Part shown: in pieces, positions 22,601 to 28,600 of the stretch
Layout: each line of letters starts with the position of its first letter
How positions within the stretch are numbered: position 1 is the first letter of the stretch
Assembly (NCBI GenBank): GCA_963556495.2
Contig: OY747723.1
Coordinates: forward strand, 10,634,501-10,698,500
Direction of reading: 5' to 3'
Length of the DNA stretch: 64,000 bases
From: Valencia hispanica
Lineage: Eukaryota > Chordata > Actinopteri > Cyprinodontiformes > Valenciidae
Position numbers and translations under genes: made by a program
Notes under the pieces: generated by a model
The model's database searches: none
What the model was told of the DNA's origin: nothing
What the model saw: the letters and a program-made list of their open reading frames with translations, nothing else

Positions 22601-25600
22601 TTTATTTACGTGTTTTACAAGAAGTGGTATTATTTCAAGGATAGATCCGGAAAATCAAATGAGAGCTGAGAAAGTGCAAGTTACACTCAACAAAGTTGTA
22701 ATGCCCATTTAACTTGTTTTTATTATTTACTCAAGGAACATTGAAAAATCAAGGTTAGGGTAACTGAAAGATATATTCAATTCAGAATAAATTTTAATAC
22801 TGCTTCAAGTCAGATTGTAGAGTTTGACATAATACAATGCCTTGAATTCACATTCTCAGATTAGCTCAGATCGCAAAGAAAAAGTAACCTCTGCTGAAGG
22901 CTTGTGGAAAAATTGGCACAAGAGAAGAATCAGGGGAAAAGGTGACTTTCTGCAAAATAATGCATTCAACTAGCATTAAAAAGTTTCAGTTATTTTGTGT
23001 TATGATTCAACAAGCAGCTCTGCCTATTTTTTTTGTTTGTTCATTATCAACCTTGCTAGGAAATATTTTACCATTTGTTGAGATACCAGATGGAGCAGAG
23101 GGCACTTGTTGTCTTGTAGGCGTAGTCTCAGTAGATGCGGTGCTTGTTTTTGAGTCAATTTTGTATCATGTTCTCTCCTTATCCCCACTGTACTTCGGTA
23201 TGGAAAGCCTTTTGAGCATTTATTAGATATCTTTGATATCCAACTTTAAATCCATGTACTAGTACACACTTCATCCTCACTAGTAAGACAATTTGGCACA
23301 CTAGTATAACGATTAGGGTGCACTAGTATAACGACTGTGTCTTACTTGTCATGTTTTTTCCACTACTAGTGTCACTTTTGGACTACTAGTATGCAATCAA
23401 ACCTTACTAGTAAACTACTATGCAGCACTAGTGACACTACTAGACCCAACTAGTAGGCATGTGTCACGCACTAGTAGCCTCCTGGACCCTACTAGTAGCG
23501 CAAAAATGCCCACAAGTAGCACTAGTAAGGCATTTTTGACCTCACTAGTGCTACTAGTAAGACACAAAATGCACACTAGTAGTACTAGTGGGGTGTGTTT
23601 TCCCTTACTAGTACTACTAGTAACAGCAAGGATGCACACTAGTAGTACTAGTGAAAGCCAAAATCTCCACTAGTAGTTCTAGTGGACATTTTGGGTGATA
23701 CCAGTAGTACTAGTAAGCTTAAACGAATCCCACTAGTACTACAAGTGGACATTTTTGATATCACTTGTACTACTTGTAAGGGCCAGAGCAACCACTAGAA
23801 GCACTAGTTGGGGTATTTAGGATCTTACGAGTGCTACTAGTGAAGGCAAAAACGTCCACTAGTAGTACAAGTACGGGTCCAACTGTCCACTAGTAGCACT
23901 ACTCAAATTAATTCAATAAAAATGCTAATTAGGAGGTGTGGACAGCATGCACTGAAACTTCTTGCTATTGGCTCTTCAGAAAGAATTGCACTCAGCCAAA
24001 ATTTAACCCTATAAAGCCTGATGAACTTTCACTGTTTTTGGCAATAACAATAATGAAAATTAATAATATAATTAAAAATAACTATTATATATGTACTATA
24101 TACATAATGAATTACGTCATACTAATATATGTCTGAGAGGAAAATGATTAATGATTATGTTATAGGCATCTCTTTCTTATCATGAGGAAGTTTAAGCTGC
24201 GCCAGTAAATAACAGCTAGTGCTGATTGGGAAAGAGAAAATTTTAATTGTAACTGGTAGTCTTACCTTTTTACATAACCTATAATGGTTGTTTGTTGATT
24301 ATATAATGAATTTGACATTCAGATTCAAGTGTATGCCTATGCTTCATAATTATTCACTGTCCTTAACACTTAAAATACTCTTTTGGAAACATGATGTCAT
24401 TTGATTTTGGTGCCCACTAGTGGCCTGTTAATGCCCACTAGTAGCACTTAATGGCCACTAGTGCCACAAGTGGGCATTTTGAGGCCACTAGTAGAACTAG
24501 TGGGCACTTAACGGCCACTAGTATCACTAGTAGCCACATAGTGCCCACAAGTAGCACTAGTGGGCATTTTGAGGCCACTAGTAGGACTAGTGGGCACATA
24601 GCGGCCACAAGTAGCACTAGTAGCACTAAGCTTAGAAGCCACTAGTAGCACTAGTGGGAATTTAACAGCCACTAGTACCACTAGTGGCCATTTTGAGGCC
24701 ACCAGTAGAACTAGTGGGCACTTAACTACCACTAGTAGGCACATAGCGGCCACTAGTACCACTAGTGGGCATTTTGAGGCCACTAGTAGAACTAGTAGGC
24801 ACATAGCGGCCACTAGTAGCACTAGTAGCGCTAAGCTTAGAAGCCACTAGTAGCACTAGTGGGCACTTAACGGCCATTAGTACCACTAGTGGGCATTTTG
24901 AGGCCACTAGTAGAACTAGTGGGAACTTAACGGCCACTAGTACCACTAGTAGGCACATAGCGGCCACTAGTAGAACTAGTAGCACTAAGCTTAGAAGCCA
25001 CTAGTAGCACTAGTGGGCACTTAACGGCCACTAGTAGTACTAGTAGCACTAAGCTTAGAAGCCACTAGTAGCACTAGTGGGTACTTAACGGCCACTAGTA
25101 GGCACACAGCGGCCACTAGTAGCACTAAGCTTAGAAGCCACTAGTAGCACTAGTGGGCACTTAACGGCCACTAGTAGTACTAGTAGCACTAAGCTTAGAA
25201 GCCACTAGTAGCACTAGTGGGTACTTAACGGCCACTAGTAGGCACACAGCGGCCACTAGTAGCACTAAGCTTAGAAGCCACTAGTAGCACTAGTGGCCTC
25301 TAAGTGACCACTAGTGCTACTAGTGGCCGCTAAGTGCCCACTAGTGCTACTAGTGGCCTTGAAAAGCCTACTAGTGCTACTAGTGACCGCTACGTGCCTA
25401 CTAGTGCTACTAGTGGCCACTATGTGCCTACTAGTGCTACTAGTGGCCACTATGTGCCTACTAGTTCTACTAGTAGCTTCTAAGCTTAGTGCCACTAGTG
25501 TTACTAGTGGCCTCGAAATTCCCACTAGTGGCAACTAAGTGTCCACCAGTGCCAATAGTGGCTGCTAAGCTAACATTAGCAGGTACTGTATACAGTCAGG

Positions 25601-28600
25601 CCATGTTGCCATAACAGTACATGCTGTCTTAATTCAAAAAATGACTAATAAAGCTGGCAACAATTAGCTGTCTTATTTTCTCACATTGACAGCTTTAGAA
25701 AACTTGAAAACATAGCACTACAAATGACAATAATATACTGTTATGAACCAGAAAATAAGAAATAAGGGACTATGGAGGAAATGAAACAAACTATTACATT
25801 AGTAATTCTGTGCATATCTTAGCCACTAAAATGTCAAGGGTGCCACATGGTGTATTTTATGGGTCTATCTGAATAAAATAGTTCTGATTGAGTTAACAAA
25901 AAAATTGGCACATCTTTTAGAATGACTGCTGTTAAACACTTTAGTATCCAGCGTGGCCACTTTAAGGCTTTAAGCACACAGTTTGAACATCTACCAATCA
26001 AAATCCATGTCCCACCTTCCTCATTTCCATGCAGTCCACTAGTCCTACTAGTGACACTAGTGGCTGCATGTTGCAACATACATGTTAACTAGTAAAGGCT
26101 AGAATGTCCACTAGCAACACTAGTGGACAGTAACACACAATATTATGGTTTTACTAGTACCACTAGTAAAAGCCAAAAAGTGTACTAGTAGCACTAGTGA
26201 GACTTTTTTGATTTCACTAGTACCACTAGAAGAGGGCAACATGTCTACTAGTACTACTAGTAAGGGCCAAAATGTGTACTAGTAGCACTAGTAAGTGGCA
26301 AAATATCCACTAGTAGCACAAGTAGGGGACTTTTACACCTTACTAGTAGTACTAGTGAGATCAAAAATGCTCACTAGTGTTACTAGTGGCAAGGTTTTGC
26401 TTTTTACTAGTGTGACTGGTAGAAGAAAGTTTGTCTCACTCGTGAGCTTCTGAACGTCACATGTAAAGGCTTTGGCTGTACTAGTGCTCATCTGCGCATC
26501 ACTAGTTCGCAACTAGCATACCACTAGTATGCAATTACACACTACTAGTGCGTGACTACACACTACTAGTGCAACATTCCTGTAACATGTGAGACATTTC
26601 TGCACACTGGTAGGACAACTTTGGCATACTAGTAGGACAGCTACATCTTACTAGTGAGGGAAAACTGTGCACTAGTTGACAATTCTGTACCGCTAGTGCT
26701 ACTAGTGACATCATAAATTTCTACTAGTTAACATCTAGTGCTGCATTAGTAGTACTAGTAGCATACAGATGTCAACTAGTGCAAAGTTTTGCCTCACTAG
26801 TAAGACGTAGCTGTCCTACTAGTATGTCAAATTTGTCCTACTAGTGTGCAGAAATGTCTCACATGTTACAGAAATGTTGCACTAGTAGTGTGTAGTCACG
26901 CACTAGTAGTGTGCAATTGCATACTAGTGGTAAGCTAGTTGAGAACTAGTGATGGGCAGATGCGCACTAGTACAGCCAAAGCCTTTTCATGTGACGTTTA
27001 GAAGCTCACGAGTGAGACAAACTGTCTTCTACTAGTTACCCTAGTAAAAAACAAAACCTTGCCACTAGTAACACTAGTGAGCATTTTTGATCTCACTAGT
27101 ACTACTAGTAAGGTGTAAAAGTCCCCTACTTGTGCTACTAGTGGATATTTTGCCACTTACTAGTGCTACTAGTGCACATTTTGGCCCTTACTAGTAGTAC
27201 TAGTAGAGTAAAACATGCCTCACTAGTAGCACTAGTAGACATGTTGGCCTTTTCTTGTAGTACTATTAATATGATAAAAGTCTCACTAGTGCTACTAGTA
27301 GACTGTCTGGCTTTTACTAGTTTTACTAGTAAGGTAAAACACATCCTCACTAGTACCACTAGTGGATATTTTAGCTTTCACTAGTACTACTAGTGAGCAT
27401 CTTCGTTGTTACTAGTAGTACTAGTAAGAAAAAAACCACCCCACTAGTTCTACTAGTGGACATTTTGTCTCTTACCAGTACATTTAGTGAGGTCAAAATG
27501 CCTTACTAGTGCTACTAGTCGGTATTTTTGCGCTACTAGTAGGGTTCAGGAGGCTACTAGTGCGTGACACATGCCTACTAGTTGGGTCTAGTAGTGTCAC
27601 TAGTGCTGCCCAGTAGTTTACTAGTAAGGTTTGATTGCATACTAGTAGTCCAAAAGTGGCACTAGTAGTGGAAAAAACGTGACAAGTAAGACACAGTCTT
27701 TATACTAGTGCACCCTAGTCGTTATACTAGTCTGCCAAATTGTCTTACTAGTGAGGATGAAGTGTGTACTAGTACATGGATTTAAAGTTGGATATCAAAG
27801 CTATCTAATAAATGCTCAAACGGCTTTCCATACTTCGGTGTCAGAGCTCCATGTTATCTACTGGGCTGGGACACCTTGTTTCCTGTGTTTGGCAGAGGCT
27901 CGTTGCTTCTGACTTACAGAGCAAAATGTGGTAGATAAAGACAAGAAATTGTAGTCCAGTTTTAGTAAGTAAGTTTTCTGTCCCAGGCTTGAAATGTTGT
28001 TGCTGCTTATTTTGACTATGGGTCTGTTGACTTTCCAGTGCTCTGTGAATCCAGTGCAGACATAAAGCATACAATATGTGCAAAACGGAGACTTCACTAT
28101 TTCATGAATCCAAGAATCATCCCCACCAACCTAATCCAATCTGAACCTAACCCCCACCCCGAAAGGATTTTTTTTTCTTTTCTTAATTTTAATCTGTAGG
28201 AAATAACTTTGGTCATTTTACTTGTTTGGTATCACATTGGTGATATTTATCTCAGTTCTGGAGTGGCTCAGGCTGGTGGGTGACAGTAAACAGCTGTGAT
28301 GGTTTCATGCTAGTCAGGGGGAGGGAAAGGGGGAGTGAGGGTTGGGAGGAAGAGTGAGTAAAACCTGGTGCGACACTAACAGGCAGTGGCTGGTGCTGCA
28401 GTAAGAGGCTGAGGTTTGCTGTAGACGCCCCCAGTGGGTCTGCTCTTACCTGGCCACCTGAAAAAATGACAGGGGTGGAGGCAGGCTTTGGGCGGTAGGG
28501 GATGGTGGCACCTTTCGGTGGGGACTGAGGAGAGCAAAGGAGGAGAAGGTGGGGGGTGGGGTTGGTGGGAGGTAGGGGGGAGGGGGGGGGGGGGGGAGAG

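Follow-up and report, generated by a model that had tools for sequence, protein, structure and literature searches.

Foldback-style arms built from a helically phased ACTAGT word in a putative IS3EU-type transposon of Valencia hispanica

The role of the long repetitive arms of foldback transposons is poorly known. In the parts of the literature consulted, the foldback form is said to have arisen in several superfamilies, with Tm1 placed in Mutator/Phantom (mostly 9-bp duplications) and Tetris assigned to Mutator (duplications of 8–10 bp). Galileo is placed in the P superfamily, and the tandem repeats of its long ends contain tested transposase (THAP) binding sites, presented in the consulted parts of that paper as the first demonstrated function for such arms (PMC3688188). 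IS3EU transposons are described, again in excerpts, as having TA..TA ends and usually 6-bp duplications, with GingerRoot mostly alike (PMC10045372), and one set of rust-fungus IS3EU families has TAYGG..CCRTA ends and 6-bp duplications (PMC12730594). IS3EU has been annotated in killifishes, in one of four tabulated teleosts and in a catfish, according to the portions of those reports consulted, and neither ACTAGT arrays nor foldback arms were mentioned in the excerpts of the IS3EU literature.

Here we describe an element in Valencia hispanica that, judging by its sequence, is most likely a non-autonomous, non-coding transposon of IS3EU type with foldback-style arms. Positions refer to the window, the whole 64-kb stretch of DNA that was analysed. 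No description of this element was found in the parts of the literature consulted, which does not by itself show that none exists.

Boundaries and architecture of the element

Inverted ends bound the element at 23199 and 27832, giving a length of 4634 bp. A previous sequence-only reading had placed it at 23199..27832, and the inverted ends show those limits to be accurate to within a base. The tips (TATGGAAAGC on the left and GCTTTCCATA on the right) are exact inverted copies flanked by a direct duplication, and the only matches to the tip pattern in the 64-kb window are the element's two ends. Set against their flanks, the tips allow three consistent cuts: at TATGG.. with a 6-bp duplication (CTTCGG), at ATGG.. 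with an 8-bp duplication (ACTTCGGT), and at GTATGG.. with a 4-bp duplication; no cut at the tips yields a 9-bp duplication. We favour the TATGG cut because another copy, recovered as the predicted protein P0121, shows TAYGG at this point. P0121 spans the tip, and its likeness to the window starts at the residues YGKP, equivalent to TAYGGNAARCCN, the residues before these being unlike. On this cut the element reads TATGG..CCATA, in keeping with the TA..TA rule of IS3EU. The left 59-bp tip also holds a second palindromic doublet, GATATC-TTT-GATATC (23226-23240), whose right-arm counterpart has one base changed. The parts of the element are as follows.

23193..23198, left target-site duplication CTTCGG (ACTTCGGT at 23192-23199 on the 8-bp reading)
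23199..23257, + strand, left end without ACTAGT, beginning TATGGAAAGCC
23258..23520, + strand, outer part of the left arm, with single ACTAGT words about every 21-22 bp and nearly unrelated linkers
23521..23905, + strand, inner part of the left arm, mainly ACTAGTNNNACTAGT doublets about every 31 bp
23906..24409, no strand, first spacer, lacking any exact ACTAGT; two open stretches compared with Pfam gave no match
24410..25560, no strand, central palindromic array of 65 words with spacings of 9/21/25/30
25561..26035, no strand, second spacer, likewise lacking any exact ACTAGT; two open stretches compared with Pfam gave no match
26036..27332, no strand, inner palindromic array centred near 26725 and overlapping the right outer arm
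27127..27832, - strand, right outer arm, in which 23199-23905 recurs inverted, with GCTTTCCATA at its end
27833..27838, right target-site duplication CTTCGG (ACTTCGGT at 27832-27839 on the 8-bp reading)

The outer arms are inverted copies of each other, with 96% identity over 339 nt and 85% over 707 aligned nt. Within the inner palindrome, arms of 464 nt each (26244-26707 and 26744-27207) are 94% complementary, and a longer alignment covers 1220 aligned nt at 87%. The central array (about 24410-25560) is self-complementary as well, its best stretches reaching 69-76%. Palindromy at three scales, as proposed from the letters alone, is therefore present in the word, in ACTAGTNNNACTAGT and in the large arms, but it takes the form of several separate palindromes and not of one. 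The companion statement that nearly every 20-40 bases repeat the word fails in the two spacers, each about 500 bp long, where neighbouring exact words lie 527 and 514 bp apart. Long inverted arms with internal short repeats place the element in the foldback-type structural class, and the central array and inner palindrome look like products of later array growth and inverted duplication.

This copy seems non-coding. None of the five open stretches compared with Pfam, out of the element's 42 of at least 40 residues, scored above the cut-off, and no transposase and no IS3EU protein was seen among them. Rfam returned 0 matches in the window. A LINE-1 copy of the host has its best matches in Nothobranchius (79%) and Polypterus (78%), as fits a ray-finned fish. 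Relatives of the arm exist outside the window: with the translated left arm as query among 703 candidates, two ENA protein predictions were recovered, P0121 (E 1.1e-25, 72% over 83%) and P0122 (E 5e-24, 88% over 50%), which look like chance translations of other copies of the arm. No relative of P0121 was found in viral contigs or prokaryote genomes, and none was found with the translated central array as query. The searches brought up no other complete copy of the element.

The word and its helical register

ACTAGT occurs 174 times in the 64-kb window, 169 of them within the element, while 100 shuffles of the window gave a mean of 16.4 (sd 3.8, largest 27), which confirms the excess that the sequence-only reading had noted. 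Pyrimidine precedes the word in 159 of the 169 cases and purine follows it in 157, so that the repeated unit is better written Y-ACTAGT-R, an 8-bp palindrome wider than the six letters previously recognised. Neighbouring words most often stand 9 bp (50 times), 21 bp (46) or 22 bp (24) apart; ACTAGTNNNACTAGT occurs 50 times, 50 of the 169 words opening one.

In each outer arm the words hold a 10.50-bp phase over about 630 bp (27 words on the left, 32 on the right, R 0.87 in each). Permuting the spacings matched this register in 0 of 2000 trials for the left arm and 1 of 2000 for the right. Because 9-bp doublets never adjoin as freely as in that permutation, a stricter version held them in place and permuted the other spacings (4000 runs), with p values of 0.0043 and 0.0003. 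Of the spacings other than 9 bp, 21 of 22 and 20 of 21 deviate by no more than 2 bp from some multiple of 10.5, compared with a fraction of 0.43 by chance. Being homologous, the two outer arms provide a single sample for register. The inner palindrome is in register as a whole (p 0.0032); its left part (p 0.16) and its singles (p 0.055) are in register no better than their spacings give, and the same is true of the central array (p 0.40). Doublet centres are not in register with the singles (p 0.52 and 0.17), and because register is lost when they serve as marks, single words and not doublets are the phased unit.

Candidate roles of the arrays

The best reading of these observations is an array of many sites for one protein on the same face of the helix, the partner probably being a transposase. 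We hypothesize, with middling confidence, that this is a non-autonomous transposon of the IS3EU/GingerRoot type whose YACTAGTR arms form a putative transposase-binding array on one helix face. A transposase coded elsewhere would move the element in trans, and the element's ends would have grown into foldback-style arms of palindromic YACTAGTR. Each YACTAGTR would be a site for a protein of two-fold symmetry, for which the transposase, through its DNA-binding part, is the likeliest candidate. With singles spaced at two turns and doublets fitted into three, the outer-arm words would come to lie on one face, where protein units could line up along the arm and help to find and pair the two ends. 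The array adjoins the 59-bp tip with its own GATATC doublet, and selection for transposition efficiency may be what keeps the word. Against this explanation stand the failure to find a transposase, an IS3EU protein or another full copy, the 8-bp reading of the duplication, which fits other superfamilies, the homology of the two arms, the absence or weakness of register in some arrays, and the outcome of the strict word-linker tests given below. A related possibility, which we entertain only tentatively, is a phase-locked platform of dozens of identical palindromic sites, all facing the same way for more than 600 bp per side, which would serve for the assembly of a transposase or of a host protein recruited by it, with AT/GC phasing between the sites also bending the DNA.

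Base composition between the words is phased as well. AA, TT, TA and AT are most frequent at a distance of 10-11 bp from the centre of a word, where GC-only dinucleotides are near zero, and the latter are highest at 5-6 and about 15 bp. This pattern is clear in three of the four arrays profiled (both outer arms and the central array) and extends to the outer singles despite their nearly unrelated linkers; the left half of the inner palindrome shows the GC component less clearly. For a simple periodic score computed at 10.2 and 10.5 bp, 18-58% of positions in the outer arms and central array lie above the 99th percentile found in the remainder of the window, setting these arrays apart from their surroundings. 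The 10.5-bp word register in both arms, together with AT/GC alternation in step with it, is new here.

Such alternation would also be expected of a chromatin element, in which CTAG TA steps 10.5 bp apart, with AT/GC phasing, position nucleosomes rotationally and package the element's ends. In the consulted parts of PMC2880596, CTAG and TTAA are named as the two principal TA-step cores known from experiment, and the order at one site runs CTAG>CTGG>CNNG. We nonetheless consider a chromatin role unlikely. An exact hexamer is not required for nucleosome positioning, but ACTAGT is nearly invariant here and is not replaced by the other tetranucleotides with TA. Near-miss words vary most at the central TA, which argues against positioning: this TA is altered in 21 of the 39 one-letter variants in register. 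Counted by part, it is altered in 8 of 13 and 3 of 6 variants in the arms, but in 5 of 13 in the inner palindrome. The helical repeat in nucleosomes is about 10.2 bp, and the 10.50-bp register of the arms matches free DNA instead. The AT/GC pattern, which may partly reflect shared descent of the units, fits both rotationally positioned nucleosomes and stiff linkers between same-face sites and does not decide between them.

Selection on the word was examined by comparing words with linkers. Between the whole outer arms, word bases differ at 9 of 204 positions and linker bases at 67 of 485 (p 0.0002), linker change being inflated by poor alignment beyond about 23690; between the halves of the inner palindrome, poorly matched parts included, the figures are 9/200 and 55/462 (p 0.0025). 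The two best-aligned blocks show no significant contrast (6/210 for words, 31/590 for linkers, p 0.18), and adding a third block gives 10/270 and 54/690 (p 0.021). With the 8-bp word, neither the two blocks (12/280 and 25/520, p 0.86) nor all three (19/360 and 45/600, p 0.23) show a significant contrast. Relative to the two other copies, word-coded residues differ at 4 of 50 positions and linker residues at 42 of 144 (p 0.0019), in three comparisons that all share the window's arm; correction for codon degeneracy gives p 0.0012, and treating words as picked from one side only gives p 0.20. The direction is consistent, and with the strictest tests not significant, slower change of the words is not proven. 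The sequence-only reading had held that the word is retained while linkers diverge, suggesting a protein-binding site. The first claim stands for the whole arms but not for the best-aligned blocks, nor for the 8-bp word, which shows no clear difference from its linkers, so that equal rates, the outcome named in that reading as its refutation, received a mixed answer; the second gains from the arm register and from the lesser change of the words, and is weakened by the outcome of the strictest rate tests.

The outcome of these strict tests is consistent with neutral growth, in which an old minisatellite of 21- and 31-bp units expanded inside a transposon by slippage, unequal exchange and inverted duplication; 21 bp would equal two turns by chance, and the words would look conserved as units were copied. 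The units of the central array, which is out of register, are plainly related (linker likeness 74%), and every other set tested lies above shuffled letters, at 39-56%. We judge neutral growth improbable all the same. The linkers of the outer singles have nearly lost their likeness (39% versus 31% for shuffled letters, six linkers of 15 nt) while their words are intact, reordering the same spacings lowers the arm register, and in the comparison with the two other copies it is again the words that are better preserved.

A hairpin code, also raised in the sequence-only reading, would have the words fold single strands for transposition or for copying by template switching. As single-stranded DNA, three doublet stretches form much stronger folds than their shuffled versions (z -3.56, -4.90 and -6.92), while one spacer does not (z +0.97). 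In the left arm, A-tract and T-tract linkers tend to alternate, so that adjacent units of 31 bp have opposite orientations (9 of 11, p 0.045). The outermost stretch of singles (143 nt), however, folds no better than shuffles (z -1.41), and the alternation falls short of significance both in the right arm (8 of 11, p 0.15) and within the inner palindrome (5 of 7, p 0.28). The hairpins thus follow from the doublets and inverted units and not from the word as such, and a hairpin code neither predicts nor needs a 10.5-bp register; we regard it as highly improbable.

A viral origin or a general ACTAGT device was rejected: a scan of IMG/VR for three spaced words gave at least 120 stretches, nine of the ten examined had spacings mostly in multiples of three (0.88-1.00; the tenth 0.67) and so point to coding repeats, and the tip pattern had 0 matches there. 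Sites for p53 were likewise rejected, since the p53 consensus wants a purine at the position preceding the word, where the element has mostly pyrimidine.

Relation to described transposons

The element resembles IS3EU and GingerRoot in that its TATGG..CCATA ends fit TAYGG..CCRTA and its best-read duplication is 6 bp, and differs in that no transposase was seen. Assignment to the IS3EU type follows from the TA..TA ends and the duplication alone and is accordingly put as the most likely one. Compared with the 8-10 bp (mostly 9-bp) duplications of Mutator/Phantom, those of the element are 6 or 8 bp, with no 9-bp reading. Duplications of 8 bp are typical of hAT and P. Merlin also has them, according to the excerpts of PMC10045372, and the element would match these three only on the ATGG cut.

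The sequence-only reading knew of no named fish element with this design; the design comes close to that of foldback elements, and the ends agree with those of a named superfamily, IS3EU. Among fish transposons, EnSpm-N6_DR of zebrafish is similar in being non-autonomous and carrying protein sites (p53), and different, in the parts of its description consulted, in having two p53 sites per copy and CACTA ends, which the element lacks. EnSpm/CACTA elements have duplications of 2-4 bp. In the consulted portion of one account they carry CAC..GTG ends with a 3-bp duplication (PMC12730594); membership was rejected for the element, whose ends are TATGG..CCATA. Synthetic nucleosome-positioning DNA shares CTAG every turn or two and AT/GC alternation, whereas the element has an exact hexamer, conserved flanks, two-turn spacing and long palindromic arms.

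One word stands out so clearly that it can be put forward beforehand as the putative binding site, and from the helical register it is predicted that half-turn insertions would be harmful and full-turn insertions tolerated. If the platform reading is true, selection would be maintaining the word although the element does not code for protein.

The foldback elements (FB of Drosophila, Galileo, Tetris and Tm1) are alike in their long arms of short internal repeats, variable middle and general lack of coding capacity, and the arms of FB consist of repeats of roughly 10, 20 and 31 bp; the named ones differ in sitting in other superfamilies than IS3EU. The arms of Galileo are the nearest precedent for arrays of transposase sites, tested there and predicted here. 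If the assignment is correct, no foldback-type arm would have been reported for IS3EU before this one, and IS3EU, for which the parts of the literature consulted offer annotations from several fish but little description, would become one more superfamily with a foldback form.

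A second palindromic doublet in the tips

The outermost ends of the element, which lack ACTAGT, carry a different palindromic doublet, laid out 6-3-6 as in the ACTAGT doublets:

23226-23240, left tip: GATATC-TTT-GATATC
27791-27805, right tip: its counterpart, with one word altered to GCTATC

The words of the tip doublets lie 1.4-3.1 bp off the mean phase of the ACTAGT words on the helical register.

Other features of the window

Two LINE-1-like copies lie in mutually opposite orientation, both split into several open frames, and the long open frames of the G+C-rich stretches adjoining them resemble each other. 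For this set of features an endonuclease domain and relatives were found.

2627-6260, +: LINE-1-like copy
about 6360-7209: adjoining G+C-rich stretch
43830-46712, -: LINE-1-like copy
about 41492-43731: adjoining G+C-rich stretch
31813-33464, -: non-LTR reverse transcriptase (RVT_1), two overlapping frames
46907-48863, +: fragments of LTR retrotransposons, with matches to the integrase core and RNase H domains
10759-11124, -: exon encoding a KH domain (E 2.8e-17), perhaps part of a poly(C)-binding type of host gene
13458-14748, -: two open frames, 143 and 191 residues

A Pfam search of both frames at 13458-14748 returned no matches; by eye, they bear a putative likeness to tyrosine-recombinase elements.

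ACTAGT in virus contigs

Among the matches listed, ACTAGT is densely packed in three IMG/VR virus-contig loci (L007, L060 and L063). The spacings there are multiples of 9 or 3, and these loci are therefore read as repetitive coding sequence.
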